Source of the DNA: Planctomycetia bacterium
GTDB lineage: Bacteria; Planctomycetota; Planctomycetia; Pirellulales; UBA1268
Length of the DNA: 59,117 bases
Direction of reading: 5' to 3'
NCBI GenBank assembly: GCA_021414115.1
Contig: JAIOPD010000066.1
Location: 1-59,117, forward strand
Under the pieces are notes generated by a model. That model worked only from the letters and a program-made list of their open reading frames with translations. It did no database searches and had not been told where the DNA came from. The translations under genes and the position numbers were made by a program. Position 1 is the stretch's first letter, and each line of letters opens with the position of its first letter. Shown here piece after piece: positions 1,708-55,565 of the stretch.

Positions 1708-4700
1708 TCAGGCATTGCGGAGTTTGATCGCGGCGATCCGCAGCGGCGGAGCGTTGACGATCGACTGCGGCAGCACGTTGGTCGCGGAGGTGGGCCGGTT
1801 GAACCGCCGCACGCCGCTCGTGCCGCCGGTGGCGTTGCGGCCCTGCACGCCGTAGACGTCGGTGGCGACCCCGTCGCCGTCGAGGTCGAGCATCGCGGCA
1901 AACACGGCTGCGTTCGGCCGGCCGAACGACGAGAAGGCGTTGATGTTCTGCCGCAGGTTCCAGTTCGCCCCGTTGTAGACCTGCACCCGCGACTCGCCGC
2001 CGACACCGGTGCCGATCATCACGTCGTCGATATCGTCGGCAGTGTAGCGGCCGGTGGAGAGCGACACGCCCCCCGTGAAGTTCGATGCGAAGGGGAGCAG
2101 CGTCTTCACCAGCACGGGGTTCACCGAAGAGGCGTCGTAGATCCGCACCTGCGCCCGGATGCCGGCGTTGGTGCCGACCACGATCTCCGAGCGGCCGTCG
2201 GGAGTGGACGACGTCTTCACGCCGCCTGAATAAGTCCCGAAATCACCCGCCGCCACCATCACGCCCAGGGCGTAGGGCGAGACGAATGGCCGGAATGAGC
2301 GGATCGGAACGTTGACGACCGGATCGGCGGCGGCAGGAGCCAACACCTGGAACACGTTCACGCGGCCCGCCCCTGTCGCCTGGCCCGCGATAATGTCGTT
2401 CCTGCCGTCGCGGTTGACGTCGCCGACCGCCACCTCCACGCCCCCCACCCACGTCGCGCCGAACGGCAGCGTGCGGTAGCGGGTGAGCTCCACCCCCTGC
2501 TGCGTGAACACCCGGATCTCGCCGACCCGGCCGCGACCGGGGGCGACGACGATCTCGGCGACGCCGTCCCCCGTCAGATCGCCCGTCGCCACGCGGACGC
2601 TGCCGCGAAACGTCGATTCGTAGGCCAGGAACTGCCGGATCAGGCCGCCGGTCGTGGGATTGATGATCTTGACCCACGGGGCCAAGAGGCAGCCGTCGTC
2701 GGTGCCGAGCACGAGGGCCGGCACATCGGCCGAGACATTGACGTCGGTCGCCGACACCCCGCCGCCGGACGTGCCCTCAGGCGGAGAGACGGTGACCGTG
2801 TTGACGAGGTTGCCCGACGCGGTCGACTTGATCGAGACGACGTACGTGAACGTGATCTTCCCGCCGGGAGCCAGGTCGATCAGGGCATTCAGGTCGCCGC
2901 TGCCGCCCGCCGGCGTCACCGACGATCCCGCCGTGGCAACGGCCGTCCAGGTGCCGCCGCTGGCCAGGGCCGGCAGCGGATCGCTCACCGTTCCGCCGAG
3001 GAGCGTGCTCGGGCCGGAGTTAGTGACCACGATCGTGTAGGTCGTGGACGTGCCCGGCACGTAGGTCGTCTTGCCGTCGGTCTTCGTGACGCCGAGGGAC
3101 ACCAGCGGGGTGTCGGCCGCCGGATCGATCACGAAGTTGTTGTCGAGATCGGGGTCGAACCAGCCCGGCGGCACCGCGACCGTGGCGGTGTTGATGAGTG
3201 GTCCACGGCGGTCGGGGTCGGTGATCACAGTGAGCTTGAAGACCTGCGTCGCCCCCGGATCCAGCCGGCCCACCGGAAACGTCACCGTCCGCGTGGCCGG
3301 GTCGTAGGTCGCTCCGCTGCTGGCCGACACGAACGTCGTCTTGGTCGGCAGCGGGTCGCTCGCCGTCGTGCCGAAGACCGTGCTCGGGCCGAAGTTGCCG
3401 ACGGTGATTGTGTAGGTCAGCGCGGTGCCCGGTGTGTAGGGCGCGTCACCGTTACGCTTCGTGACCCAGAGGTCGGAGACTGGATTGGCACCGGCTGGAT
3501 CGACGAAGATGTTGTTGGAGAGATCCGGGTCGAACACGTCCGCGGGCACGGCGACCGTCACTGTGTTCTCGAGCGGCCCGGTCCGGTCGGGATCGGTGAT
3601 CACCGTCAGCTTGAAGACCTGTGTCGCCCCGGGATCAAGCCGGCCCACCGGAAACGTCACCGTCCGCGTGATCGGATCGTAGGTCGCCCCGCTGCTGGCC
3701 GACACGAGCGTCGTCTTCTCCGGCAGCGGGTCGTTGACCGTCGTGCCGAAGACCGTGCTCGGGCCGTGGTTGCCGACGGTGATCGTGTAGGTGAGCGAGG
3801 TCCCCGGCGTATACGGCGCGTCGCCGTTACGCTTCGTCACCCAGAGGTCGGCGACGGCCACGACGGTGGTGGTGTCGCTCGCCGAGTTGTTGTCGAACGG
3901 GTCGGGCGTGTCGCTTTTCACGGTGGCCGTATTGGTGTACGGTCCCGGCAGCGTCGTCGATGGCACCGTGTAGGAGACCTGGAGCGTCACCTGCGCGCCC
4001 GCGGCCAGTGTGCCGATGCTCCAGGAGAAATTGCCGCTGCCCGATGGCGTCACCGTGCCCTGGCTCGGCAGGCCAAACGCCCCCTGCGTGAAGCCCGCGG
4101 GCCACGCATCGGTGAGGAGCACACCCTGTGCATCCGACACGCCGCCATTTCGAACGCGGATCAGATAGGTGTGCACGATGCCGCCGCCGGCCGTGACCGT
4201 CGTCGCGAAGTCAGTCTTGGCGACGATCAGATCGGCCGAGGCGACCACGGTGGTCGAATCGGTGGCGGTGTTGTTGGGATCCGGGTCGGGCGTGGAGCTC
4301 GTCACGCTGGCAGTGTTGGTGAAGACGCCGGGCAGGGTGCTGGCCGGCACCGTATAGGTAACCGTCAGCGCCGCCTCGGTGTCCTGCGCGAGCGTGCCGA
4401 GCGACCAGGTGAAGTTGCCTCCCACGCCCGGCGACACACTGCCCTGACTCGGCAGGCCGAAGGCCCCCTGCGTGAAGCCGTCGGGCCAGATGTCGGTGAC
4501 CACCACATCCTGCGCATCCGAGAACCCGAGACCGTTATTTTTCACGCGGATCGTGTAGGTCTGCGTGGTGCCCCCGCCCGCCGTGACGCTCGTCACGAGA
4601 TCGGTCTTCGTGATCGAGACATCGGCCAGCGCCGTCACCGTGGTCGAGTCGGTCGCGGTGTCGGTCGGATTGGAGTCGGGCGTCGAGGTCGTCACGGTGG

Positions 4701-7700
4701 CCGTGTTGACATACGCCCCCGGCAGCGTGGCCGCCGGCACGGTGTAGGTGACGGTCAGCGTCGCCTCGGCGGCGGCGGCGATCGTGCCGACCGCCCAACT
4801 GAAATCGCCGCCGGAGCCCGGCGTCACCGTGCCCTGGCTCGTCGTCGGCAAGCCGGCCGACGCGAAACCGGCCGGCCAGTCATCGGCGACCGTGACATTG
4901 CGGGCATCGGAGGCGCCGGTATTCCGCACCCGGATGGTGTAGGTCTGGGTCGTGCCGCCGCCGGCGAGCACGGTCGTGACGCCGTCGTCCTTCGTGATCA
5001 CGAGATTCGAGAGGGCCTTCACGGTGTTGGTGTCGGTGGCCGTGTTGTCGCCGACCGGATCGGGCGTCGTGCTCGTCACCGTCGCGGTGTTGGTGTAGGC
5101 GCCGGGCAGCGTGCTTGCCGGCACCGTGTAGGTGACCGCGAGCGTGGCGACACCCCCCTTCGCCAGCGTGCCGAGCGACCAGCCGAAGTCGCCGCCCGTG
5201 CCGGGCGTCAGCGTCCCCTGGCTCGGCAGGCCCAGGCCCGTCTGCACGAAGCCGGCCGGCCAGACGTCGCTCACCGCCACGTCGCGGGCGTCGGAGGCGC
5301 CGAGGTTCCGCACCGTCAGCGTGTAGGTCTGCGTCGTGCCGCCGCCGGCGAGCACGGTCGTGACGCCATCGTCCTTCGTGATCGTGAGATTGGCCGACGT
5401 GACGACGGTGGTCGTGTCGCTGATCGTGTTGTTGTTGAAGGGATCGGGTGTCTGGCTCGTCACGGTCGCCGTGTTGACGTAGTTGCCCGGCAGCGTGGAC
5501 GAGGGAACGACGTACGACACCTGGAGCGTCACCTGCACGCCGGCGGGCAGCGTGCCGATCGACCAGGTGAAGTCGCTGCCGGGGCCGGAAGCGACCGTGC
5601 CCTGGCTCGGAATGCCGATCGTCGTCTGGTCGAATCCCAGCGGCCAGACGTCGGTGAGCACCACGCCCTGGGCGTCGGACACCCCGCCGTTGCGGACGCG
5701 GATCAGGTAGGTCCGCACCACGCCGTCGCCGGCCGTGGCCGTCGTCGTGAAGTCGGTCTTGGCGACGATCAGGTCGGCCGACGTGAGCACGGTCGTGGTG
5801 TCGGTCGCGGTGTGGGACTCGGGATCGTCGGTGCTCGTCACCGTGGCGGTGTTGGTGCGCGGGCCGGGCAGCACGTTCGCCGCCACCGTGTAGGTGACCG
5901 TGAGCGTGGCGCTGCCGCCCGCCGGAAGCGTGCCGACCGACCAGATGAAGTCGCCCCCGACGCCGGTCGCCACGGAGCCCTGGCTCGGAGTGCCGAACGT
6001 GCCCGGCGTGAAGCCGGCCGGCCAGTCGTCGGTGGCGACGACACCCCGTGCGTCGGAGACGCCGCTGTTCCGCACCGTGATCGTGTAGGTCTGGACCGTG
6101 CCGCCGCCGGCGACGACCGTCGCCACGCCGTCGGTTTTCGTGATCGAGAGATCGGGCATCGCGATCACGGTCGTCGTGTCGGTCGCCGTGTTGTCGGGAT
6201 CGGGATCGAACGTCGAACTCGTCACCGTTGCCGTGTTCACATAGGGACCGGGGAGCGTGGCCGACGGCACGGTGTACGAGACGACGAGCGTCGCGACGCC
6301 TCCCGCGGGCAGGACGCCCAGCGACCACGAGAAGTCGCCCCCGACGCCCGGCGTCACCATGCCCTGACTCGGCACGCCGAAACCCGTCTGGGCGAACCCA
6401 TCCGGCCAGAGGTCGCTCACGGCCACGTTCTGAGCATCCGAGGCGCCGAGGTTCGTGACGGTAAGCAGGTAGTTGTGGGTGATGCCGTCGCCCGCCGTCA
6501 CGATCGTCGCCGAGTCGGTCTTCGTGATCCTGAGGTCCGCGGAGGTCGTCACGGTCGTCGTGTCGGTCGCCGTGTTGGCCGGATCGGGATCGGGCGTGCT
6601 GCTCGTCACGACGGCCGTGTTCGTGTAGCTGCCCGGCAGCGTGCTCGCCGGCACCGTGTAACTCACGGTGAGCGTGACCTCGGTGTTGGCGGCGAGGGTG
6701 CCGATCGACCAGGTGAAGTTGCTGCCCGGCCCCGACGCCACGCTGCCCTGAGTTGGGATCCCGAATGCCCCTCGCGTGAAGCCGGCTGGCCAGGTGTCGT
6801 TGACGACGACAGCCTGGGCGTCGGAGACGCCGTTGTTTCTGACCCGCAGCGTGTAGGTCTGGACGGTGCCGCCGCCGGCCAGCACGCTCGTGACGCCGTC
6901 GGTCTTCGTGATCGTGAGGTTCGCCGAGGCGATGACGTCGGTGAGATCGACGGCCGTGTTGTTCGGATCGGGGTCGGGCGTCGTGCTCGTCACCGTCGCG
7001 GTGTTGGTGTAGGTGCCGGCCAGCGTGCTCGCCGGCACCGTGTAGGCCACCTGCAGCGTGGCCACGCCCCCCGCGGACACCGTCCCGAGCGTCCACGCAA
7101 AGTTGCCGCCGCTGCCCGATGCCACCGTCCCTTGGCTCGGCGTGCCAAACGCCCCCTGTTGGAAGCCCGCGGGCCAGACGTCGTTGACGACCACGCTCTG
7201 CGCGTCGGACGCGCCGAGATTCCGCACCGTGAGCGTGTAGAGTTGCACCGTGCCGCCGCCCGCGGTCACCGTCGTCGTCGCGTCCGACTTCTCGATCGTG
7301 AGATTCGCCGCGGCCGTCACCGTCGTCGTGTCGCTGGCCGTGTTGTTGCCGGGCACGGGATCGGAAGTGCCGCTCGTGACCGTCGCGGTGTTGGTGTACA
7401 GTCCCGGCGCGGTGCTCGCCGGCACGGTGTAGGAAACCTGGAGCGTCGCCGTCCCGCCGGCTACGACCTTCCCGACCGACCAGACGAAGTTGCCGCCCAC
7501 GGCTGGCGTCACGCTCCCCTGGCTCGGCAACCCGAACGCGCCCTGGGTGAAGCCTGCGGGCCAGACGTCGTTGACGACGACGTTCTGGGCATTGGAGGCG
7601 CCGCTATTTTGCACCGCGAGGGTGTAGGTCTGGACCGTCCCGCCGCCGGCCAGCACCGTGCTCGTCAGGTCGGTCTTCGTGATCGTGAGGTTCGCCGACG

Positions 7701-9366
7701 TGATCACGTCGGTCGAGTCGGACGCCGTGTCGACGGGATTGGTGTCGGGCGTCGTGCTCGTCACCGTCGCGGTGTTGGTGTAGGTGCCGGGCAGCGTGCT
7801 CGCCGGCACCGTGTAGGTCACCGTCAGCGTCGCCTCGCCGCCGGCCACGAGCGTGCCGAGCGTCCAGGCGAAGTTGCCTCCACTGCCGGCACTCACGCTC
7901 CCCTGCGTCGGCGTGCCGAGCGTGCCCTGCTGGAAGCCGGCGGGCCAGGCGTCGTTGACCACGACGGTGCGGGCGTCGGAGAGGCCGTCGTTCCGCACCC
8001 GCAGCGTGTAGGTCTGGATCGTGCCGCCGCCAGCCAGCACCGTGCTCGTCTCGTCGGTCTTCGTGATCGTGAGGTTGGCCAGCGGTGTCGGCGTGTTGGT
8101 GTCGGAGGCGGTCACGGTGCTCCCCGACACCGTCGCCGTCACGGTGTTGGTCATGTCGCCGACCGCGCTCGAGAGGATCACCCCTTTGATCGTGATCGTC
8201 ACGACGCCGGTCAGGGGGGCGAGGTCGACGGTGCCGCCGATGTTGCCCGAACCATTCGCCGGCAGTGTGCCGCTGGCGTTGCTGTAGGAGACCGTCCAGG
8301 TCGTCGCCGCGGCGTTCAACTGCGGGGGCAGGATGTCGCTCACCACGACGCCCGACGCGGCTCCCGCGCCGGTGTTCGCGAGCACGATCGTGTAGGTCGT
8401 CATGCCGCCGGGGGTGTAGGTCGTCACACCGTCGTTCTTGGTCAGCGTCAGCCGCGGGGGAATCGGCGGAATCGTGGGAAACGGCGTGGCGTCGGGCTTG
8501 TGATGCTTCCAATCCTGCGCGCCGTCCTGCGTGAACTGGGTCGGCGACGTCAGCGTGGAGGTCGTCGACGGCCGCGTGATCAGAAACTCATACGTGCTCG
8601 TGAACGGCTGCTGGTTCACGAGGCCGGTGAGGCCGTCGTAGAAGAGCCCGTTGGGTGCCTGAGCGACGCCCGAGATCGTATGGCTCGTCGATCGTAGCTC
8701 GAACACGTCGGGCTCCCAACTTGTCGCCGAGGCCGGCGCGAAGAGCACGCGGTCGGCGCCGTTGCCGAGGCGGCCGGTGACCGAGAGCGTGAGCGTGTCG
8801 CCGATCTGGGGATTGGCCGGAGCGTAGGCGACCGTATCGACCTTGTTGGGCTCCGCCGCCAGCGTGTTGACGACGGTCGTGAGAGAGAACGGCTTCGTCA
8901 CGAGCAGCGATCCGCCGTTGCCCGGCTCGCCGCCATAGACCTCGATCGAATAGGGCACGGCCGCTGCGGAAAGTGCGTTGGCCGTGAAGTAGAGAAATGC
9001 CGTACCGGTGGTGCTCGGTGCCAGCGTACCAATGTGATAGAGGCCGTCCTCGTTGTTGTAGCCCGACCCGACGCCCACCGGGCTCCCTGTGGGAAACAAG
9101 GCCTTCACCCAGACGTCGGTCGCCGGGCCGCTCGCGTCGTTGGTGATCGTGTAGGCCGTGTACTCCGACGTCATGCCCACGCTGAAGTCGGTGAAGAAGT
9201 CGTCGGGCGTCGTCCGCTCGACGCCGCCGGCGAGGATCGCCAGCAGGTCGCGGCGTTCGAGCTGCTCGGCACGGTCGAGGCCCGGGCGGCGGGCGAAAGC
9301 CGTGCGGGCGGGCTTCCGAACGGGCCTCGACGAGCGGCGGGCGAAGGGGGTGGCGAGCGGGTTCAT
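1708..9366 (-). CDS. Giant secreted protein: planctomycete export motif, 15 DUF11 repeats, FG-GAP-like C-terminal propeller
   Basis: From the ATG at 9366 (MNPLATPF...) this encodes 2552 residues; an upstream ATG at 9561 is in frame but would read through the leader hairpin and add an unlike segment. The N-terminus is strongly basic and carries LERRDLLA, the planctomycete extracellular-protein motif. After a region of about 300 residues come 15 DUF11-type beta-sandwich repeats, each opening like NLTITKTD and continuing AGGGTVQTYT; eleven of them are about 128 residues apart. The last 350 or so residues contain FG-GAP/VCBS-like blades with calcium-loop patterns such as DLTGDGVAEIV and DVNRDGRNDII. 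DUF11 stalks are cell-surface or extracellular. A role in adhesion or matrix is inferred. Leader attenuation may control it. Confidence 0.85.
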   Translation of the reverse strand: MNPLATPFARRSSRPVRKPARTAFARRPGLDRAEQLERRDLLAILAGGVERTTPDDFFTDFSVGMTSEYTAYTITNDASGPATDVWVKALFPTGSPVGVGSGYNNEDGLYHIGTLAPSTTGTAFLYFTANALSAAAVPYSIEVYGGEPGNGGSLLVTKPFSLTTVVNTLAAEPNKVDTVAYAPANPQIGDTLTLSVTGRLGNGADRVLFAPASATSWEPDVFELRSTSHTISGVAQAPNGLFYDGLTGLVNQQPFTSTYEFLITRPSTTSTLTSPTQFTQDGAQDWKHHKPDATPFPTIPPIPPRLTLTKNDGVTTYTPGGMTTYTIVLANTGAGAASGVVVSDILPPQLNAAATTWTVSYSNASGTLPANGSGNIGGTVDLAPLTGVVTITIKGVILSSAVGDMTNTVTATVSGSTVTASDTNTPTPLANLTITKTDETSTVLAGGGTIQTYTLRVRNDGLSDARTVVVNDAWPAGFQQGTLGTPTQGSVSAGSGGNFAWTLGTLVAGGEATLTVTYTVPASTLPGTYTNTATVTSTTPDTNPVDTASDSTDVITSANLTITKTDLTSTVLAGGGTVQTYTLAVQNSGASNAQNVVVNDVWPAGFTQGAFGLPSQGSVTPAVGGNFVWSVGKVVAGGTATLQVSYTVPASTAPGLYTNTATVTSGTSDPVPGNNTASDTTTVTAAANLTIEKSDATTTVTAGGGTVQLYTLTVRNLGASDAQSVVVNDVWPAGFQQGAFGTPSQGTVASGSGGNFAWTLGTVSAGGVATLQVAYTVPASTLAGTYTNTATVTSTTPDPDPNNTAVDLTDVIASANLTITKTDGVTSVLAGGGTVQTYTLRVRNNGVSDAQAVVVNDTWPAGFTRGAFGIPTQGSVASGPGSNFTWSIGTLAANTEVTLTVSYTVPASTLPGSYTNTAVVTSSTPDPDPANTATDTTTVTTSADLRITKTDSATIVTAGDGITHNYLLTVTNLGASDAQNVAVSDLWPDGFAQTGFGVPSQGMVTPGVGGDFSWSLGVLPAGGVATLVVSYTVPSATLPGPYVNTATVTSSTFDPDPDNTATDTTTVIAMPDLSITKTDGVATVVAGGGTVQTYTITVRNSGVSDARGVVATDDWPAGFTPGTFGTPSQGSVATGVGGDFIWSVGTLPAGGSATLTVTYTVAANVLPGPRTNTATVTSTDDPESHTATDTTTVLTSADLIVAKTDFTTTATAGDGVVRTYLIRVRNGGVSDAQGVVLTDVWPLGFDQTTIGIPSQGTVASGPGSDFTWSIGTLPAGVQVTLQVSYVVPSSTLPGNYVNTATVTSQTPDPFNNNTISDTTTVVTSANLTITKDDGVTTVLAGGGTTQTYTLTVRNLGASDARDVAVSDVWPAGFVQTGLGLPSQGTLTPGTGGDFGWSLGTLAKGGVATLAVTYTVPASTLPGAYTNTATVTSTTPDPVGDNTATDTNTVKALSNLVITKDDGVTTVLAGGGTTQTYTIRVRNTGASDARNVTVADDWPAGFASAGLPTTSQGTVTPGSGGDFSWAVGTIAAAAEATLTVTYTVPAATLPGAYVNTATVTTSTPDSNPTDTATDSTTVTALADVSITKTDLVTSVTAGGGTTQTYTIRVKNNGLGFSDAQDVVVTDIWPDGFTQGAFGLPSQGSVSPGVGGNFTWSLGTLAQDTEAALTVTYTVPASTLPGVFTNTASVTSSTPDPDPNNTATDSTTVVASADLIVAKTDFATTVTAGGGIVHTYLIRVRNGGVSDAQGVLLTDAWPAGFTQGAFGLPSQGTVTPSGSGNFSWSIGTLAAGAQVTLQVSYTVPSTTLPGPYTNTATVKSDTPDPFDNNSASDTTTVVAVADLWVTKRNGDAPYTPGTSLTYTITVGNHGPSTVFGTTVNDPLPEKTTLVSASSGATYDPITRTVTFPVGRLDPGATQVFKLTVITDPDRTGPLENTVTVAVPADVFDPDLSNNIFVDPAGANPVSDLWVTKRNGDAPYTPGTALTYTITVGNFGPSTVFGTTASDPLPTKTTFVSASSGATYDPATRTVTFPVGRLDPGATQVFKLTVITDPDRRGPLINTATVAVPPGWFDPDLDNNFVIDPAADTPLVSLGVTKTDGKTTYVPGTSTTYTIVVTNSGPSTLLGGTVSDPLPALASGGTWTAVATAGSSVTPAGGSGDLNALIDLAPGGKITFTYVVSIKSTASGNLVNTVTVSPPEGTSGGGVSATDVNVSADVPALVLGTDDGCLLAPWVKIINPTTGGLIRQFLAYESTFRGSVRVATGDLTGDGVAEIVVAPGRGRVGEIRVFTQQGVELTRYRTLPFGATWVGGVEVAVGDVNRDGRNDIIAGQATGAGRVNVFQVLAPAAADPVVNVPIRSFRPFVSPYALGVMVAAGDFGTYSGGVKTSSTPDGRSEIVVGTNAGIRAQVRIYDASSVNPVLVKTLLPFASNFTGGVSLSTGRYTADDIDDVMIGTGVGGESRVQVYNGANWNLRQNINAFSSFGRPNAAVFAAMLDLDGDGVATDVYGVQGRNATGGTSGVRRFNRPTSATNVLPQSIVNAPPLRIAAIKLRNA
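4165..8050 (-). repeat. Tandem coding repeats of about 385 bp (DUF11 units)
   Basis: Equivalent positions, the codons for GTVQTYT, recur on the minus strand near 4170, 4555, 4935, 5325, 5707, 6085, 6470, 6855, 7235, 7625 and 8010, a period of 378-390 bp. Units are diverged enough to differ at many third positions but keep the same blocks. Four further DUF11 units (one N-terminal, three C-terminal) are more distant. Recombination between units could change the stalk length. Confidence 0.8.
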
Positions 9367-9392
9367 GGCAGGCCCCTCGTGCTCCAGGCAAC

Positions 9393-9442
9393 AAAAAAAG
9401 CCGGCGTGAACAGACGCCCTGAGGCATCCGCTCACGCCGGCT
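9393..9442 (-). terminator. Intrinsic terminator-like hairpin in the leader of the DUF11 gene
   Basis: Read on the minus strand: an 11-bp perfect outer stem (AGCCGGCGTGA at 9442-9432 with TCACGCCGGCT at 9409-9399), a 3x3 internal loop, a 6-bp inner stem (GATGCC/GGCGTC with one G-T pair) closed by TCAG, then seven T residues (9399-9393). The start codon is only 26 nt further, with GGAG and GAGGGG in between. No minus-strand gene lies upstream that it could terminate, so it is either an attenuator of the DUF11 gene or the end of a small RNA. Confidence 0.7.
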
Positions 9443-9727
9443 GACGCGGGGCGGGAGCACCCCGTCGCGGGGCATTCCCTCCACTCGTTTTCCGACTCGT
9501 GATCTGTGGTGTACGGCAGACGCGATTCCCGCCGGCGGTCATGCAACCGCCTGTGAGTCACCCGTCGATGGATTCATAGGGGGCCGCTTCGGCCGCAAGC
9601 AAATGGCCGCCCACATGCCGGTGCGGGCATCATGCGGAAGCCTGCGGAGATCGACTCGGGCCAGGTAGCCGACGGATGAGACACTTCCGCCCTGCGGCGG
9701 CTCACCGTAGATTGGGGCTCTTCATCA
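9443..9727. other. Leader and promoter region between the divergent DUF11 gene and a sulfotransferase gene
   Basis: On the minus strand, 9473-9443 contains CCCCG-CGA-CGGGG followed by GCCCCGCGTC. The central GGGG can pair with either CCCC tract, so two mutually exclusive hairpins are possible directly upstream of the terminator-like stem. This is the sort of arrangement used by transcription attenuators, but no known riboswitch class is recognised. On the plus strand no convincing promoter for the gene at 9728 is seen; a TAGATT hexamer near 9709 is the only weak candidate. Confidence 0.4.
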
Positions 9728-10558
9728 ATGCCCGCACTCGACTCCACCGACTCCGACCGTCCTCTCTTTCTCCTGGGCACCGGCAGGTGCGGATCGACGT
9801 TCTGGCAGACTCTCCTCTGCCGCACGGCCGACATCTGGATCTGGGGTGAGCATGCCGGCATGCTGAGGCCATTCGCCCGGGCTCGCGGGCTGCTCCGCAC
9901 CTGCGCGGCGTTCCAAATGCACGCCGGCAGGTCAGTGACGCCCGCCGATGTCGAAGAGCCGACGGCGGACAACACGCCCGGCCTTGCGTGGGCGAATGGG
10001 TTCGATGCCGCGGCCTTCGACGACCATCTCCGCGGATTCATCGTGGGGCTCATGCGGCCTAGGCTTCCACCCGGCAAGACTCGCTGGGGTTTCAAGGAGA
10101 TCCAGTACGGCTTCGAGGACCAAACGCCCGAACTCCTGCTCGACCTGTTTCCCGGCGGCACGATCATCCACACCCTCAGGCATCCCCGCACCACCCTCGA
10201 GAGCGCGATGCAGGCATGGTATGCCAGGGCGCTGGAGCAGGCCGCTGTGAACCCGGCCGATGCCGAGGCCGCCTACGCGGCGCAGGCCCAGCGCTGGCTC
10301 GGCACCACGAAGCGGCTTCTCGATCTCGCAGAGGCAACCAGTCGCGTTGTCAGCGTGAAGATCGAGGAAGTCGCCGAGGGCCGGGAGAAACTGCGGCAGA
10401 CGTTCGGCATCATGACCCCCGAGTCGCACCCGCGGGTGAATCGCGTGCCCGAGCCACCAGCCGGCGTTCCCACCTCGATCGAGGGACTGTTTGCACGACT
10501 CTGGGAGAAGTCGAAGGACAAGCTTCAGCCGGTTGCGTCGCGAGCCGGCTACGAGTGA
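9728..10558 (+). CDS. Sulfotransferase family protein
   Basis: A 276-residue cytoplasmic protein that would transfer sulfate from PAPS to a hydroxyl or amine acceptor. The 5'-phosphosulfate-binding loop is clear at about residues 17-26 (GTGRCGSTFW), following the strand PLFLL. A 3'-phosphate-binding-like segment, RHPRTTLESAMQAWY, lies at about residues 155-170. Length fits the family (250-320). It faces the minus-strand glycosyltransferase/methyltransferase/sulfotransferase operon across the junction repeat at 10606, suggesting a shared glycan pathway. The acceptor cannot be told from the sequence. Confidence 0.8.
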   Translation: MPALDSTDSDRPLFLLGTGRCGSTFWQTLLCRTADIWIWGEHAGMLRPFARARGLLRTCAAFQMHAGRSVTPADVEEPTADNTPGLAWANGFDAAAFDDHLRGFIVGLMRPRLPPGKTRWGFKEIQYGFEDQTPELLLDLFPGGTIIHTLRHPRTTLESAMQAWYARALEQAAVNPADAEAAYAAQAQRWLGTTKRLLDLAEATSRVVSVKIEEVAEGREKLRQTFGIMTPESHPRVNRVPEPPAGVPTSIEGLFARLWEKSKDKLQPVASRAGYE

Positions 10559-47867: not shown

Positions 47868-50800
47868 ATGGTCGACTGGGGCGTTCGTTTGCTATCGCGG
47901 GGTCTGCCCCGCTTCTGTTGCGATGCCAGCCAAGACCGGCGCACCTTCCAGTCGCTCACCATTCTCCGAGCGCTCGCGTGCTCCTTGGCCATTCTCGCCA
48001 CGAACCACGCATCGGCAGCGACCTGGTATTGGGACACCAACGGAACAACCAGTGGATTCGGTACCGCCAGCGGCACATGGGGAGCCAGCACCTTTTTCAG
48101 CACCAGTTTCTCAGGCACGCTGACGACTGGCTCCTCGACGAACTCGACGACCGCCGACACGCTCTGGTTCGGCACAGACGCGCTCGGCCTCTCGTCCGGC
48201 ACGATCGCTGTCTCCGGCAGCCGAAGCATCGGCAGCATGATTTTTGGCGGCGCCAGCGGCACGCTTTCACTCACAACCGGCACGATCACGCTGGCGCCAT
48301 CCAGCACGATCACCGTCAACAACGCCTCCACGACGCTCTCCTCGCGACTGACAGGCAGCGGTGCCTCGTTGATCAAGACCGGCACGGGAACGTTGAACTT
48401 GTCCGGGACGAGCGACTATTCGGGCGGCACCACTCTCAAGGCGGGCCGGGTCGTCGTGGCCTCGTCTGGCGCGCTCGGATCAGGCAGTGGCAGCCTCACT
48501 CTTTCGGACGGCGTTCTGGAACTCAACACGGCATCATTGAGCGTGGGTACGTTGAGCGGATCTGCCTGGACCATGATCACCAGCGCCGCCACATCGGGCA
48601 CTCGAACACTCTCCACCACGATCTCATCCGGCTCGTCAACCTTCGCGGGATCGATCGTCAATTCGGGCTCGGGCGTCATGGCCCTCACGAAATCGGGGGC
48701 CGGCACCCTCGTTCTGGCCGGCAGCAGTTCGTATACGGGCGGTACCACTGTCTCCTCGGGCACTCTCGTTCTGGCAAATGGGTCAGCACTCGGGGCTGGC
48801 ACGGGCCGGCTGGCGATCAACAGTGGCCTGCTCGACATGGGCTCTTTCAACGTGACGACCGGAGGCATCTCCGGCGCTGGCGTCATCACCACCGGATCGA
48901 CCGCCGGCACGAGGGCGTTGACCGTCGCGGTCGACTCCGCGACCAGCTCCAGTTTTAGCGGCTCGCTTCGCAACAATGCCGCGGGGATCCTGGCTGTCGT
49001 CAAGTCTGGTAGCGGCGGCCTGACGCTTTCGGGAAGCAGCTCGTTTACCGGCGGCACGACGATCACCGGCGGCACGCTGACGACCGGGAATGTGGCCGCG
49101 CTTGGGAGCAGTTCGGGCAGGGTCGCCATCAATGCGGGCGTTCTCAACACGGGCACGGTCGGACTCACGATCGGCAGCCTGAGCGGTGGCTCCGGAGGCG
49201 TGATCACGACGGCGACGAATGCCGGCACCCGGACCGTGACGATCGTGGGATCGGCCGTCTCAACCTACAACGGCACGATCCGTGACAACGGCCTCGGAAT
49301 CGTCGCTGCGTCCGTCAACGGTGGTTCACTCACGCTCACCGGCTCCAACTCGTATTCAGGGGGCACGACGCTGTCCTCCGGTACGTTGACGATGGGCAAC
49401 CAGGCGGCGCTGGGGAGTGCCGTCGGACGGTTGACGGTCAACGGCGGCCGGCTCAGCACGGGTCTGTACAGTCCGACCGTCGGGACGTTGAGCGGATCGG
49501 GTGGCGTGATCACCACCGCTGCCGTGGCCGGCACGCGCTCGCTCACGACCAATATTTCCTTGGGAACTTCGACCTTCGCAGGCACGTTGGCCGACAGCGC
49601 GCCGGGCGTGCTCGCCCTCGTCAAGACCGGTCCAGGCACACTCACGATCAGCGGTTCAAACTCGTTCACCGGAGGCACGACGGTAGACGGCGGGGCCCTT
49701 CGGGTGGACGGCTGGGCGGGCGCGGGGGGCGTGTCGGTCAATGCCGGCGGCACCCTGTCGGGTCAAGGGACGACGGGCGCGGTAGCCATCGCCCAGGGCG
49801 GCATCATCAGCCCTGGCAGCGCGGTGGGGACACTGTCCGTCGGCGACGTCACCCTGGCCGGCGGGGGAATCTACAACTGGCAACTGTTCAATGCCGCTGG
49901 AGTGTCTGGCAGCGGATGGGATCTGCTGTCGGGCGGACCGCTCACCGTCAACGCGACCGTCGGCAATCCTTTCAGCATCAACCTGTGGACGGTCACGAGT
50001 GCCACCGCCGGCACCAGCGGCGTTGCTGCAAACTTCAATCAAGCAAACTCCTACAGCTGGACCATCGGCACGTTTGCGGGCGGCATCTCCGGTTTCTCGC
50101 CCGAGGTGTTCAGCCTCGTCACCGGGCCCGCAAACGGCGCTGGAGGATTTGCCAATCCCTTCACGGGCGCGTTCAGCCTGGCCTCGAATGGCACCGATCT
50201 GACCGTGGTCTACACCCCGGCCATAGGATCGGTACCCAATTACGTTGGCAGCACGGGCAACTGGAGCACGCCATCCAACTGGTCGCCTGCAATCGTCCCC
50301 AGTGGCACACCCGTCGTCATGTTCTCTGGCACGGCAGGAGGCATTTCGACCAATGACGGTGTGCTCGCGGCTGTCGCAGGCTTGAGGTTCAAGGACTCCG
50401 CCGGGGAATACACCGTCGCTGGAAGCGGCTTGGCTCTTGGCGCGGATGGCGTGGCGAACGATTCCGTGGCCACGCAAGCCGTCGGGGTCGATATGACGCT
50501 GTCCGCCGATTCACGGATCGATGCCGGCTCCGGCGACGTAACGGTTACCGGCGCGATCGACACGGATGGCCACTCACTGACCGTTCGTGGCTCGTTCGAC
50601 GCCACGCTAGCCGAGATCAAGGGAAGCGGCGGGCTTGTCAAAATCGGGCCGGGGCAGCTCACCCTGTCGGGCTCGAACTCGTTTACAGGAGGCACCACGC
50701 TCTCGACGGGAACGCTTCTCTTGGGTTCCGCGGCCGCACTCGGGGCGTCCTCGGGATCGCTGACCGTCAACGGCGGCGTCCTCGACGCTGCTGGATTCGA

Positions 50801-53800
50801 CTTCACGGTCGGCACCCTGAGCGGCTCCGGGTCGGGAATCATCACGAATTCTGCCGGTGCCAGCATGCTCACCACGACCGTCGCCTCGGGCAGCAGCGGT
50901 GCCGTCTACGCCGGCGGCCTTCGCGACGGCAGTGCGGGCACGATCGCCCTCGTCAAAGCGGGATCTGGTCGGCTCGTTCTTTCCGGGAGCAATGCTTATT
51001 CCGGAGGCACGACGATCACCTCCGGATCGCTGGTGGTGGGCAATGCGGCCGCCCTTGGCGTTACATCGGCACCGCTGGCCGTCAACGGCGGGACGCTCGA
51101 CACGGGTACGTTCAGCATCTCGGTAGGGGATTTGAGCGGCAACTCCAGTGGCATGATCACGACGAGTTCGCTCACGGGCACCAGAATCCTCACGGCGGAC
51201 GTGAGCTCCACCTCCATATTTGCCGGCACACTGACGGGGAGCGGAGCCGGCGTTCTCGCGCTGACCAAGACCGGAAACGGATCGCTCACGCTTTCAGGAT
51301 CCAACCGGCACACCGGGGGCACGACCATATCGGCGGGAACGCTGGTGGTCGGAAATGCGGCTGCGTTGGGCACTGGAACCGTCGGAGTCGTGCTCAATGG
51401 GGGCATGCTTGACACGGGGACTTTCAGTCCGTCGATCGGTGGGCTGGCAGGTGCTGCCGGCACGGTCGTCACCACCGCCTCGACCGCAGGCACGAGGGTG
51501 CTCACGACCAATATCATGAGCGGCACCTCGACGTTCGCGGGATCGTTCCGCGACAACGGCGTAGGAGTCCTCGGATTCACAAAGGCCGGCGCAGGGGTTC
51601 TGGCCTTGACTGGCAGCAGCGCCTACAGCGGCGTCACGACCGTCGCGGCCGGAACGTTGACGGTCGGCCATGCCGCTGCTCTGGGCGGCAGTGCAGCCCG
51701 CGTGGCCGTTACTGGCGGAACGCTCGACACCGGAACCTTTGACCTCTCCCTGGCCAGCCTGACCGGCTTCGGGGCCGTGACCACCGCAACGGCCGCCGGG
51801 ACACGAACGCTCACCGTCTCCAGCGGCTCGGCCGTGACGTTCAGCGGGTCGCTCCGCGACAACGGCTCCGGAAAACTTGCTCTGCTCAAGCAAGGAGTCG
51901 GCAGACTCACGCTCGCCGGGAGCAACAGCCTCTCTGGCGGCGTCACCGTGCAGGGCGGGACTCTTGCCGTGGGCGGGGGTGGAACCGCGGGTTCCTTGGG
52001 GGCGGGCTCCGTCGTCAACGATGCCGCGCTCGTCTTCGATCGCACCGACTCGTACGGCGGCGTTGTCGGCAACTCGATCAGCGGTTCGGGGGGCGTGACA
52101 CTCACTCGGGGTCTCCTGACGCTTTCGGGAAGCAACAGCTATTCCGGGGGTACGGTCATCTCCTCTGGGACGCTCGCTTTCGACAACCCGCATGCATTCG
52201 GAACGGGGGCTGTGACGGTGAGAAATAACGCCGCCCTGGCGGGAACGGGCACCATTCACATGGGAAGTCTCGTTCTAGGGTCGGCGACGGGTACTGGGCC
52301 GTCGCTGATCGCCATGTCCGTAAGCGGCGGGATGCCTGCCACCCGCCTGAATGTTCTTGGTGACATTACCACGGCCGGCACGAGCGCGGTCTTGTTTTCA
52401 TTCGGCAACGCGCTCTCCACTCTGTCGACCGGCACCTACACGCTTGCGGATTATGGCGGCTCTCTCAGCAGTTTCTCAGTGTTCGGTTATTCAGGTGTCG
52501 CTGGTGCGCGGCAGTCGTTGGAGCTGCTCGATGCTGCACACAAGATCGACCTGTTGGTGGCGAATGCCGACGTGATCTGGTCGGGAACCAATGGGAGCGA
52601 CTGGTCGACGGCAGACAACTGGAAATTGAGCACGGATGGTGCGCCGACGACGTTCCTTCCGTCCGACAATGTGGTTTTCGACGATTCGGGCTCGTCCGGT
52701 AGCGTGGTCATCACGAACCGCGAGGCGCCAAGCACGATCACGGTCACCGCAGGCACGAACGCCTACTGGCTCTCGAATTCCGGCAGCGGCGCGATCGTCG
52801 CCGGAGCCTTGGTCAAATCCGGGGCTGGTTTATTCGTTGTGACAGGCAGCAACTCGTTCGCGGGCGGCACCACTCTCACCGCCGGCGAACTCAGGGTGGG
52901 CGGCGGTTTCTCATTGGGATCCGGAGCGATCACGATCACGGGCGGCACGCTCGGCTCGGCTGACCAGTTCAGTAAGGCCCTCGCCAACCCCGTGTCGATG
53001 AGCGACGACGCCACGCTGGGCAGTTGGAGCTCCGGGGCGTTGACGTTCAGCGGAACCGTCGACCTCGAGGGCGGTTCTCGGCAGCTCACGATTCCGGGGC
53101 GGGTCACCATCAGCGGCAAGATCGTCGATGGCGGCCTGACGAAGAACGGAGGCGGCGTCCTCACGCTCTCAGGATCGAACACCTACTCCGGTGACACGCG
53201 GATCGCCTCCGGAACTCTCGCGATCGCCAGCACGGCGGCACTCGCCGGGTCGACGCTCGACATGGCTGCCGCCGACACGGGAAGCGTCGCGTTTACGGCC
53301 AGCGGTACGGGCACGCAAACCTACTCGCTCGGCGGCTTGAAGGGATCGCGGGACATCGCCCTCGGCGGCGATAGGCTGAGCATCGGTGGCAACGGCCAAA
53401 CGACGACTTATGCCGGTGTGCTGAGCGGGAGCGGCGGCATTCTGAAGGTGGGCGGCGGCACACTCACGCTCACCGGTGCCAACACCTACACGGGCACGAC
53501 GACGGTGGGCACCGGCAGGCTCGTCGGCACGACGACAAGCCTCCGCGGCGCCATCGTCGTGAGCAGTGGCACGCTGGAGTTCAGCCAGGCAGCAAGCGGC
53601 ACATTCGTCGGGGCGCTCACTGGCATCGGCGCGCTGGTCAAGTCAAACACCGGCACACTCACCCTCACGGGCACCAGTTCGTTCAGCGGCCCCACGTTGG
53701 TCAGCGAAGGGAGATTGAAGTGCAGCACATCGAGCCTTCGTGGCAACATCACGAACAGGGCCGAACTCGAGTTCGACCAGGCGGTGAGCGGCGGATTCTC

Positions 53801-55565
53801 CGGAACGATCAGCGGCAGCGGCACGTTGATCAAATCGGGGAGCGGTTCACTGAGCCTGACGCCGACCTCGGTCGTTGGAGACGTCCGAGTCACTGCCGGC
53901 GGCCTCTATGGAAGCACGGCGAACTTCCGCGGCAACATCGCCACCAGCGGAGTGGTGACCTTTTCCCAATCCACCAATGGCGAATACGCCGGCGTGTTGA
54001 GCGGGACCGGTAGCTTCGTGAAGAACGCAAATGGGACTGTCGTGCTCTCGGGAAACAATACGCTGACCGGCATCACGAACATCGGCTATGGACTCCTCGC
54101 CACTGCATCGGCTGAAAGGATCGCGGACGCCGCAACGGTCGCCGTGTCGACCATGGCAGGGTTACGGATTGGCGGCAACGAGACCATCGCTTCGCTGGTC
54201 GGGTCCGGCACGGTCGATGTGCAGTCGTATCAACTGACGATCGCAGGGAGCGGCAGTTCGATGTTCGGCGGCTCGATCATCGGTTCGGGCGGTCTCACGA
54301 AGGCAGGCATCGGCACCTTCACCCTGACAGGATCGAACGGCTTCCTGGGAAACACCAACTTGCTCTCGGGCATGCTCGTCCTCTCCAACTCGGCTGCGCT
54401 GAGCCCCTCCACGACATTGACCATCGGCACGGGTGGCACCCTCGTCCTGAACCGCACCGTCCGCGTCTTCTCCTACACGAACGCCGGCACCATCACTGGC
54501 ACAGGCTCCCTGCTCACCTCGGCGACCGCCGTCAGCAGCGGCACCATCTCGACACCGATCACCGACGTCACTGGCACCGACGGGTATGCCGTCGGTCTCG
54601 AGAAGAACACCGACGGCACGGTCGTCGTGTCGGCATCTAACACGTTCACCGGTGGCATCGTCGTATCGGCCGGTACGGTGCAACTCGAGGCGGGCGGTGC
54701 GTTCGCGGCGGGAAACTTTCTCGAGGTGCGCAGCGGGGCGGCCATCGATCTCAACGGACAATCCCAGACGTTCACCGACCTCCTCGGCGACGGCAGCGTC
54801 GCACTCGGCGGAGCGACGATGACCGTCGATGCAACCACGAGCACGAACTACTCGGGTGTGATCGCCAGCGGCACGATCGTCAAGTCGGGATCGAGCAGCC
54901 TCACGCTCTCCGGAACGACCACCCAGACCGACGCGACGGTGAAGTCAGGGCTCTTGGTAGTCAATGGCATGCTCGACGGGAGCGTCTCCGTCGATGCAGG
55001 GGGTGTTCTCGGCGGAGCCGGTACGATCGTTGGCGATCTGACGGTCAACGGCACGCAGAATCCGGGCAACTCACCGGGGATCGCGACTGTACAGGGCAGC
55101 GCCACCTACAACGAAGGCTCGACGATCGTCTGGGAACTGGCGGGCAACACCGAGTCCAATACTCCGGTGACGTTCGATCAGATCAACGTTGCGGGCGACC
55201 TTACCTTTGCGGGACCGACGGCTCTCCGGCTGTCCTTCTACGACAACGACCCTTCGAGCACATGGACGAGTGCCGTCGATTGGGCGGATTCGTTCTGGAA
55301 CAGCGACCACTCATGGATCGTCTTCGATGTCGGTGGAGTGACGAGCGGTTTTGACTACCTGTCTTTGACACCCGATGCGTGGCTCGACGGCACCGATCCG
55401 GGCGTGGCCTTCGCGACCGCCCGCCCGGATTCCGCCTTCACGCTGTCGTTGGCAGGAAACGACGTCGTCCTGTCGTATACCGCTGTACCCGAGCCGGCGA
55501 CGACTCTCGTGGTTGCTTCGGGCCTCCTATGCGCTGCGGTTGCCATGCGCCGCCGACGGCGCTGA
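47868..55565 (+). CDS. Giant PEP-CTERM protein of three fused autotransporter-repeat passengers
   Basis: 2565 residues. A long signal peptide ends ILATNHASA, and the mature part opens TWYWDTNGTTSG ... SGTWG. About 19-20 autotransporter-associated repeats follow, of the form LTLSGSNSYSGGTTLSSGTL, predicting a long right-handed beta-helix. Two internal restarts are seen: NYVGSTGNWSTPSNW near residue 790, after a passenger end VVYTPA, and VIWSGTNGSDWSTADNW near 1567, after LLDAAHKIDLLV. The C-terminus is AVPEPATTLVVASG, a hydrophobic helix and RRRRR, a PEP-CTERM signal for exosortase sorting. No outer-membrane barrel is present, so it is not a classic autotransporter. A surface adhesin or matrix role is inferred. 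Confidence 0.87.
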   Translation: MVDWGVRLLSRGLPRFCCDASQDRRTFQSLTILRALACSLAILATNHASAATWYWDTNGTTSGFGTASGTWGASTFFSTSFSGTLTTGSSTNSTTADTLWFGTDALGLSSGTIAVSGSRSIGSMIFGGASGTLSLTTGTITLAPSSTITVNNASTTLSSRLTGSGASLIKTGTGTLNLSGTSDYSGGTTLKAGRVVVASSGALGSGSGSLTLSDGVLELNTASLSVGTLSGSAWTMITSAATSGTRTLSTTISSGSSTFAGSIVNSGSGVMALTKSGAGTLVLAGSSSYTGGTTVSSGTLVLANGSALGAGTGRLAINSGLLDMGSFNVTTGGISGAGVITTGSTAGTRALTVAVDSATSSSFSGSLRNNAAGILAVVKSGSGGLTLSGSSSFTGGTTITGGTLTTGNVAALGSSSGRVAINAGVLNTGTVGLTIGSLSGGSGGVITTATNAGTRTVTIVGSAVSTYNGTIRDNGLGIVAASVNGGSLTLTGSNSYSGGTTLSSGTLTMGNQAALGSAVGRLTVNGGRLSTGLYSPTVGTLSGSGGVITTAAVAGTRSLTTNISLGTSTFAGTLADSAPGVLALVKTGPGTLTISGSNSFTGGTTVDGGALRVDGWAGAGGVSVNAGGTLSGQGTTGAVAIAQGGIISPGSAVGTLSVGDVTLAGGGIYNWQLFNAAGVSGSGWDLLSGGPLTVNATVGNPFSINLWTVTSATAGTSGVAANFNQANSYSWTIGTFAGGISGFSPEVFSLVTGPANGAGGFANPFTGAFSLASNGTDLTVVYTPAIGSVPNYVGSTGNWSTPSNWSPAIVPSGTPVVMFSGTAGGISTNDGVLAAVAGLRFKDSAGEYTVAGSGLALGADGVANDSVATQAVGVDMTLSADSRIDAGSGDVTVTGAIDTDGHSLTVRGSFDATLAEIKGSGGLVKIGPGQLTLSGSNSFTGGTTLSTGTLLLGSAAALGASSGSLTVNGGVLDAAGFDFTVGTLSGSGSGIITNSAGASMLTTTVASGSSGAVYAGGLRDGSAGTIALVKAGSGRLVLSGSNAYSGGTTITSGSLVVGNAAALGVTSAPLAVNGGTLDTGTFSISVGDLSGNSSGMITTSSLTGTRILTADVSSTSIFAGTLTGSGAGVLALTKTGNGSLTLSGSNRHTGGTTISAGTLVVGNAAALGTGTVGVVLNGGMLDTGTFSPSIGGLAGAAGTVVTTASTAGTRVLTTNIMSGTSTFAGSFRDNGVGVLGFTKAGAGVLALTGSSAYSGVTTVAAGTLTVGHAAALGGSAARVAVTGGTLDTGTFDLSLASLTGFGAVTTATAAGTRTLTVSSGSAVTFSGSLRDNGSGKLALLKQGVGRLTLAGSNSLSGGVTVQGGTLAVGGGGTAGSLGAGSVVNDAALVFDRTDSYGGVVGNSISGSGGVTLTRGLLTLSGSNSYSGGTVISSGTLAFDNPHAFGTGAVTVRNNAALAGTGTIHMGSLVLGSATGTGPSLIAMSVSGGMPATRLNVLGDITTAGTSAVLFSFGNALSTLSTGTYTLADYGGSLSSFSVFGYSGVAGARQSLELLDAAHKIDLLVANADVIWSGTNGSDWSTADNWKLSTDGAPTTFLPSDNVVFDDSGSSGSVVITNREAPSTITVTAGTNAYWLSNSGSGAIVAGALVKSGAGLFVVTGSNSFAGGTTLTAGELRVGGGFSLGSGAITITGGTLGSADQFSKALANPVSMSDDATLGSWSSGALTFSGTVDLEGGSRQLTIPGRVTISGKIVDGGLTKNGGGVLTLSGSNTYSGDTRIASGTLAIASTAALAGSTLDMAAADTGSVAFTASGTGTQTYSLGGLKGSRDIALGGDRLSIGGNGQTTTYAGVLSGSGGILKVGGGTLTLTGANTYTGTTTVGTGRLVGTTTSLRGAIVVSSGTLEFSQAASGTFVGALTGIGALVKSNTGTLTLTGTSSFSGPTLVSEGRLKCSTSSLRGNITNRAELEFDQAVSGGFSGTISGSGTLIKSGSGSLSLTPTSVVGDVRVTAGGLYGSTANFRGNIATSGVVTFSQSTNGEYAGVLSGTGSFVKNANGTVVLSGNNTLTGITNIGYGLLATASAERIADAATVAVSTMAGLRIGGNETIASLVGSGTVDVQSYQLTIAGSGSSMFGGSIIGSGGLTKAGIGTFTLTGSNGFLGNTNLLSGMLVLSNSAALSPSTTLTIGTGGTLVLNRTVRVFSYTNAGTITGTGSLLTSATAVSSGTISTPITDVTGTDGYAVGLEKNTDGTVVVSASNTFTGGIVVSAGTVQLEAGGAFAAGNFLEVRSGAAIDLNGQSQTFTDLLGDGSVALGGATMTVDATTSTNYSGVIASGTIVKSGSSSLTLSGTTTQTDATVKSGLLVVNGMLDGSVSVDAGGVLGGAGTIVGDLTVNGTQNPGNSPGIATVQGSATYNEGSTIVWELAGNTESNTPVTFDQINVAGDLTFAGPTALRLSFYDNDPSSTWTSAVDWADSFWNSDHSWIVFDVGGVTSGFDYLSLTPDAWLDGTDPGVAFATARPDSAFTLSLAGNDVVLSYTAVPEPATTLVVASGLLCAAVAMRRRRR
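48390..54960 (+). repeat. About 19-20 diverged autotransporter-type coding repeats
   Basis: Each unit encodes an S/T/G-rich block close to L-x-GSNSYSGGTT-x-SSGTL followed by N-AALGS. Units are unevenly spaced, from about 180 to 400 bp, and are interrupted at the two passenger junctions near 50230 and 52570. DNA identity between units is low apart from the SGGTT core, so they are old. Confidence 0.8.

Follow-up and report, generated by a model that had tools for sequence, protein, structure and literature searches.

A candidate planctomycete cis-regulatory RNA with a closing stem that overlaps a terminator-like hairpin lies in the leader of a giant DUF11 gene

Results

Features of the intergenic region

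The window, by which we mean the whole stretch of 59,117 nucleotides that was analysed, contains on its minus strand a giant gene (1708-9366) for a DUF11 surface-type protein. The protein is 2552 aa long when read from the ATG at 9366-9364, and a Pfam search of the translation, scanned from 9363, matched DUF11 in 15 stretches. When its N-terminal 60 residues were used as query, one fair match besides the protein itself was obtained (G015:C41, E 7.9e-5), the others being at chance level. The upstream neighbour (9728-10558, plus strand) is a divergently oriented sulfotransferase gene (Sulfotransfer_3, Pfam E 3.5e-10), and the minus-strand ORF located opposite this gene (9574-10194) gave no Pfam match. 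As far as tested, this agrees with a previous sequence-only reading of this DNA, according to which no gene precedes the region on the minus strand. Since the upstream neighbour is divergent, the hairpin described below belongs to a leader and not to the 3' end of a gene.

A hairpin resembling an intrinsic terminator is present on the minus strand at 9442-9399, with a stem formed by 9442-9423 and 9418-9399 and a TCAG loop (9422-9419). The sequence-only reading had described it as a perfect 11-bp stem plus a 6-bp inner stem; the hairpin itself was borne out but its extent was not, as the stem consists of 20 consecutive pairs including G-U pairs, 13 of them being G-C. The loop, the run of seven Ts (9399-9393) and the 26 nt (9392-9367) between this run and the start codon can be read directly in the sequence, as had been stated. 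A Shine-Dalgarno-like GAGGGG (9378-9373) lies outside the hairpin. A pattern scan of the window gave 47 terminator-like sites (17+18+12, some of them overlapping), of which the 9442-9399 hairpin is the richest with 20 pairs, the next one having nine. RNA folding of 9450-9393 gave -41.9 kcal/mol (z -7.4), and folding of the whole leader (9561-9393) gave a z of -5.3; in both cases none of 200 shuffled sequences was equally stable. A G+C-rich stem followed by a U run, as expected for an attenuator, is thus located 5' of a coding sequence, and the giant gene is presumably the gene controlled by it.

The leader contains a conserved rod-like domain

BLASTN searches with the intergenic region in 22 genomes of the genus resulted in better matches with E-values from 1.9e-15 to about 0.003 and identities of 69-83%, the rest going down to chance. 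The better matches span the hairpin, and several include about 50 nt 5' of it; they are located in other genomes and at two further places of the own genome. The matched loci have a common layout, in which a conserved domain is followed by a hairpin with a T run and then by a start codon, and in two other genomes of the genus (loci L022 and L023) similar leaders precede related genes. A covariance model based on 16 sequences (R1) gave matches outside its training set that scored from 77.5 down to about 39 bits, including a csrA leader and leaders of genes for PEP-CTERM-like proteins. The window contains a second giant ORF (47868-55565, plus strand, 2565 aa), and R1 found no copy of the element ahead of it.

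The alignment of 36 cores with MAFFT (A5) shows a rod composed of stem P1 (UCGG/CCGR), internal loop 1 (ANG/ARG), stem P2 (ACG/CGU), a second internal loop that is often AGU/CAG, stem P3 and hairpin P4. In the window this aptamer-like core of 61 nt is located at 9495-9435 on the minus strand. It scored 52.9 bits with model R2, which contains P1-P3, and 47.7 bits with model R3, and region 9495-9393 scored 92.5 bits with R1; the training sets of all three models include the window copy. The P1 5' strand UCGG (9495-9492) pairs with CCGG (9440-9437), a strand that according to alignment and folding is common to the terminator 5' arm. Internal loop 1 has AAA (9491-9489) on its 5' side and CAG (9443-9441) opposite. 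P2 is formed by ACG (9488-9486) and CGT (9446-9444), the latter strand being supported by RNAalifold on alignment A7, and P3 by 9482-9476 and 9456-9450 with one A.G mismatch, its 3' strand being assigned by alignment and covariation. The P4 hairpin CCCCG-CGA-CGGGG (9472-9460) appears in the leader fold, and its pairs covary in the family.

Covariation was analysed in three alignments. In A5, changes on both sides were observed in 10 of the 14 named pairs, giving 37 cells with double changes against 15.1 in shuffles (0/500), which is also above the slid controls. Alignment A7 (94 sequences aligned to R2) contained 152 such cells against 47.4 in shuffles (0/500), and alignment A8 (111 elements from pattern-scan loci of named genomes) 90 against 18.5 (0/500); in A8 the evidence comes mainly from P3 and P4, because the scan pattern largely fixes P1 and P2. 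All seven P3 pairs have changes on both sides in A5 as well as in A7, and the third P2 pair switches in A7 between GC (59 sequences) and UA (33 sequences). RNAalifold on A7 recovered P1, P2 and P3 together with two pairs of P4, and 11 of the 15 predicted pairs show compensatory changes. P1 hardly varies: changes on both sides occur in two of its four pairs in A5, each in one sequence, and in none in A8, and 16 of 35 A5 rows do not form the outer pair. Because P1 varies so little, support for this stem comes mainly from its mutual exclusion with the terminator (see below). Together, the aligned sequences strongly support P2-P4 by covariation and weakly support P1. A conserved, covarying structured domain, such as is expected of a riboswitch, is present in what would be the transcribed 5' leader.

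Scans against Rfam 15 at the gathering threshold gave no match in the whole window, nor in sets of 16 and 13 loci. In E-value mode a scan of 15 loci yielded weak matches below threshold, as well as tRNA genes lying outside the element, and further scans gave sub-threshold matches only. These scans are in line with the initial impression that the leader is unlike any known riboswitch class.

The window copy deviates in internal loop 1

The window copy has A instead of G at position 7 of internal loop 1, and C instead of A at the opposite position 66. Among 91 A7 rows the combination at positions 7/66 is G/A in 87, A/G in two (L022 and L023), A/C in one (the window) and G/C in one (L157); one of the 111 A8 rows has A/A. 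All three A7 rows with A at position 7 sit before related DUF11-type genes, those of L022 and L023 being cut by contig ends and related to the window gene by BLAST. By sequence these three copies resemble a single variant lineage that may have altered sensing or may be decaying. Given its deviation in a conserved internal loop, the window copy may be degenerate or differently tuned.

Stem P1 and the terminator are mutually exclusive

The P1 3' strand CCGR coincides with bases 2 to 5 of the terminator 5' arm, and in the window P1 and the terminator share CCG. Because the closing stem P1 uses bases of this arm, P1 and the terminator cannot coexist. The 205 model matches of A7 and A8 correspond to 198 unique elements, and in 178 of these a terminator-like hairpin starts at the GCC of P1, as compared with 1162 of 23,896 GCCG control sites elsewhere in these loci. 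When overlapping terminators were defined more strictly, the numbers were 157/198 and 62/23,896, respectively. Folding of the 193 elements with enough downstream DNA gave a P1 probability above 0.5 for 192 cores alone and for five when 60 more nt were included; for the window copy the probability dropped from 0.99 to 5e-6. This folding result is partly built in, because the covariance models were trained with P1. By the shared bases and these foldings, the leader has the alternative pairing that excludes the terminator in an attenuator. The recurrence of domain and overlapping terminator at many loci before coding-like ORFs supports well the original designation of the leader as attenuator-like.

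The sequence-only reading had also proposed alternative folds based on a GGGG tract and two CCCC tracts. Pairing of 9463-9460 with either 9472-9469 or 9451-9448 is possible, but it does not constitute the conserved switch, the rivalry that recurs being that between P1 and the terminator 5' arm. We have dropped it as main switch; pairing with the first CCCC tract gives the ordinary P4.

By the test used, 20 of the 198 elements are without an overlapping terminator. The surface-protein-type copies L100, L107, L109, L114, L115 and L117 lack the terminator by that test, and L100, L107, L115 and L117 have a GCTGCRCCG-like stretch downstream whose potential pairing with the aptamer 3' strand may be a second read-out. 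This pairing was analysed at 22 surface-type loci out of 23 chosen, some of which carry a terminator-like hairpin after all. Six of them have 10-11-nt stretches that were reached by at most 2% of 50 shuffles, a seventh was at 4% and the other 15 were unremarkable, so that a second read-out mode is only suggestive.

Promoter-like sequences upstream of the element

A plain promoter consensus scan near the giant gene gave nothing, and promoter-like sites emerged only when many loci were compared. Among the 194 elements with enough upstream DNA, the sigma-70-like pattern TTGnnn-N16-19-TAnnnT was found upstream of 103, against nine for the reverse complement and 11 for shuffled sequences, and the ends of the pattern cluster about 60 nt before the element. 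In the window a -35 hexamer TTGCTT (9602-9597) and a -10 hexamer TATGAA (9578-9573) are predicted, with an 18-nt spacer, which would place the transcription start near 9566. This sequence (9602-9573) does not match the strict pattern. Its -10 ends 78 nt before the core, within the range of the other copies (-97 to -26) and towards its far side.

Distribution of the element

The own genome is counted in all the following figures. In the family, R2 detected the element in 45 of 72 genomes and 10 of 12 genera (E 0.1). In the order, R2 found it in 39 of 146 sampled genomes and 27 of 88 genera (E 0.01). With R3 it was detected in 48 of 248 sampled genomes and 33 of 130 genera of the class (E 0.001), where the richest genome has 17 copies, and in 6 of 246 sampled genomes across the phylum. 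The genome from which the window originates has eight copies at E 0.1 or better (R2). As judged by these models, the element is widespread and far from universal, being absent in most sampled genomes of order and class. Antisense matches, in which the hairpin is read backwards, were ignored.

A pattern scan of named genomes gave at least 119 stretches; among the 80 loci listed, 78 have planctomycete names, one is from an unspecified bacterium and one is from Zobellella (L269), a proteobacterium, at which R3 gave no match. The element is also present in records titled Candidatus Kuenenia stuttgartiensis (L216, L218, L253 and L273); provided that these titles are correct, its range would include anammox bacteria. 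The element pattern is found in addition on one IMG/VR viral contig (L329, 2873-2934, minus strand), which may be viral or host contamination.

Some intergenic regions contain two divergent copies, with a separate gene downstream of each. This is the case in the own genome (L101 on C87, 4589-4691 plus and 4075-4180 minus), and another divergent pair is present on G343:C20 (2139 minus, 2447 plus). Islands of several copies within a few kb were observed on G102:C262 (L167), G025:C43 (L166), G119:C3 (L174) and G346:C182, and in L166, L167 and L174 some of the copies precede small stress-type genes.

Genes located downstream of the element

ORFs of at least 40 aa follow 188 of the 198 elements, yet they also follow 582 of 588 random positions. 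Because such an ORF follows almost any position, a lone downstream ORF without family match is weak evidence. Downstream ORFs with a coding score above 20 were found for 153 of the 198 elements versus 255 of the 588 random positions, so that elements and random positions differ in this score alone.

Families of the first downstream ORF were determined in two sets. The pattern-scan set (A8) has 106 unique elements, 96 of them followed by an ORF of 45-1000 aa; 86 of these ORFs were scanned, 10 having been omitted by eye as probably spurious, overlapping or containing unknown bases. They included 24 MpsC, six CsbD, four sigma-70 region and three KaiC proteins. The A7 set has 92 elements, 85 of them with an ORF of that length, and 80 were scanned. 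The window's gene and that of L111 were too long for the set. Here we found 34 MpsC, seven PEP-CTERM, three response regulator and three CsrA proteins, with single cases of acetate kinase, CsbD, DUF1328 and the YflT heat-stress domain; these counts are not independent, as many copies are relatives from one family of genomes. Nine of the 80 elements are followed by exosortase-dependent surface proteins of the XDD4 type. In the L061 operon the leader precedes an MpsC/DUF2294 gene, which is followed by csrA, a second MpsC gene and a gene for a response regulator with a SpoIIE phosphatase domain. A recurrent short ORF starting with MIVKAVGLTSEEV or similar is found behind some leaders (L101, minus-strand gene; L108; L117).

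MpsC is present in 34 of 43 element-bearing versus 4 of 36 element-free genomes (Fisher p 9e-10, uncorrected for phylogeny). The 43 are part of the 53 found by R3 in the class and phylum samples, the 10 omitted being less complete or giving weak matches; the 36 were a non-random choice from the family, order, class and phylum searches and are free in the sense of giving no match under the stricter filters of Infernal. CsrA was found in every one of the 79 genomes tested, element-bearing and element-free alike, so that its co-occurrence is uninformative.

Discussion

The element recurs before the start codons of many genes, folds as a rod, overlaps a terminator-like hairpin and competes with it in folding. 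From these sequence comparisons we consider it probable that the leader of the giant DUF11 gene belongs to a planctomycete class of cis-regulatory RNAs that act by transcription antitermination. In the mechanism that we propose, a sigma-70-like promoter would start transcription some 50-75 nt 5' of the element. The nascent RNA would fold into the rod, with P1 (UCGG/CCGR), loop ANG/ARG, P2 (ACK/MGU), a second 3x3 internal loop, P3 and hairpin P4. As the polymerase advances, the terminator 5' arm, which holds the P1 3' strand, would gain a far more stable partner, P1 would open and transcription would stop. A signal, which may be a small molecule, an ion or an RNA-binding protein, would stabilise P1 and the purine-rich loops and delay this exchange so that the gene is reached, making the element an ON switch. 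Its location before MpsC/DUF2294, csrA, csbD, sigma factor, kaiC, regulator and exosortase-dependent surface genes suggests that it may serve as a shared switch for a stress or slow-growth regulon, a label that we infer from the downstream gene families, and the giant DUF11 gene would be one member of this regulon.

The attenuation step could also be set by a protein, the sensor being the only difference from the mechanism just described. An RNA-binding protein, CsrA and MpsC/DUF2294 being candidates because the leader precedes their genes, would act on the rod or on its opened 5' strand: binding of CsrA to the single-stranded GGA would keep P1 from forming and promote termination, and MpsC would be an autoregulator. 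We regard this as rather unlikely. The csrA gene is the first ORF in three of 80 loci and lies behind MpsC in the L061 operon, and a GGA is present within the first 9 nt in 87 of 91 A7 rows and in 110 of 111 A8 rows, the A8 selection pattern containing GGA itself. The GG is explained by the P1 pairing, however, and one GGA only is conserved, whereas typical CsrA targets have more than one, usually in hairpin loops. The ubiquity of CsrA in the genomes tested says nothing either way. For MpsC, the association with element-bearing genomes given above (again uncorrected for phylogeny) is in favour, but nine of the 43 gave no MpsC match, and to our knowledge MpsC is not known as an RNA-binding protein.

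The promoter-like sequence, the strong terminator and the presence of up to 17 copies in one genome would also fit a separate gene for a trans-acting small RNA that is merely located upstream of these genes. Such an RNA would have no need for the P1 strand that is common to the terminator in 178 of 198 copies, some terminator-less copies retain the core domain before surface-protein genes, and the downstream gene families repeat, which together make it improbable; that termination here would end a small RNA, as the sequence-only reading allowed, is less likely than attenuation. It is very improbable that the hairpin is a mere terminator shielding the giant gene from stray transcription without any sensing. 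A perfect hairpin with a T run suffices to terminate, but the divergent upstream neighbour leaves little to shield from on the minus strand, and the 61-nt domain 5' of the terminator is conserved and covaries. A further alternative concerns novelty and not mechanism: there is a small chance that the element is the Rhodopirellula-1 motif, noticed before as an ambiguous candidate. In Table 1 of a 2010 survey of 104 candidate RNAs this motif, which has no Rfam accession, is marked "y" for cis-regulatory and "?" for RNA, and is assigned to Proteobacteria and Planctomycetes (PMC2864571). As far as this table description goes, the present element shares the occurrence in Planctomycetes and the cis-regulatory assignment, and differs in that the 80 pattern-scan loci listed include a single proteobacterium, unmatched by R3, and in the ambiguous RNA status of the motif. 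In the open-licence literature searched, where Rhodopirellula-1 is known to us by that Table 1 description only, we found no description of this planctomycete leader RNA.

An antiterminating leader, the reading that we prefer, has several known counterparts. With terminator riboswitches it has in common the position in the 5' leader, a conserved covarying domain, a closing stem that overlaps the terminator, and the use of one element for unrelated genes; it differs from these in its fold, in which stacked 3x3 internal loops form a rod and not a multi-way junction, and in having no Rfam match in the scans described above. Protein-responsive attenuators such as ribosomal-protein leaders likewise combine an RNA rod, conserved purine-rich internal loops, a terminator and possible autoregulation, whereas the regulon considered here spans many unrelated genes. 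CsrA-controlled leaders are similar in that csrA belongs to the regulon and a GGA is conserved, and differ in that this single conserved site lies in a paired strand (P1 and its loop) and not in a hairpin loop. The yjbJ motif, described in PMC11109978 as a weak riboswitch candidate with 40 representatives, is a Streptococcus leader that precedes a csbD-like stress gene and whose second hairpin resembles a terminator. As far as that description goes, the logic is similar; the yjbJ motif is however reported from Streptococcus only (PMC11109978), whereas the element described here is planctomycete and precedes many gene families.

A bolder interpretation, which we advance tentatively and regard as somewhat less likely to be true than not, is that these elements form a planctomycete riboswitch class in which the RNA itself senses a stress or second-messenger signal and controls a stress and surface regulon of up to 17 loci per genome by antitermination, with a variant subclass (loop pair A/S for G/A) of altered specificity before DUF11-type surface genes. 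Planctomycetes form a large phylum in which gene regulation is poorly known. In many of its genera one RNA domain precedes MpsC, CsrA, CsbD, sigma-factor, KaiC, response-regulator and exosortase-dependent surface genes. With its conserved loops, its terminator read-out and a variant subclass, the element would lend itself to a direct in vitro search for a ligand or protein partner. Well-studied bacteria run their stress response via an alternative sigma factor; if direct sensing of a molecule by the element proves true, these planctomycetes would have a stress response that is run by RNA.
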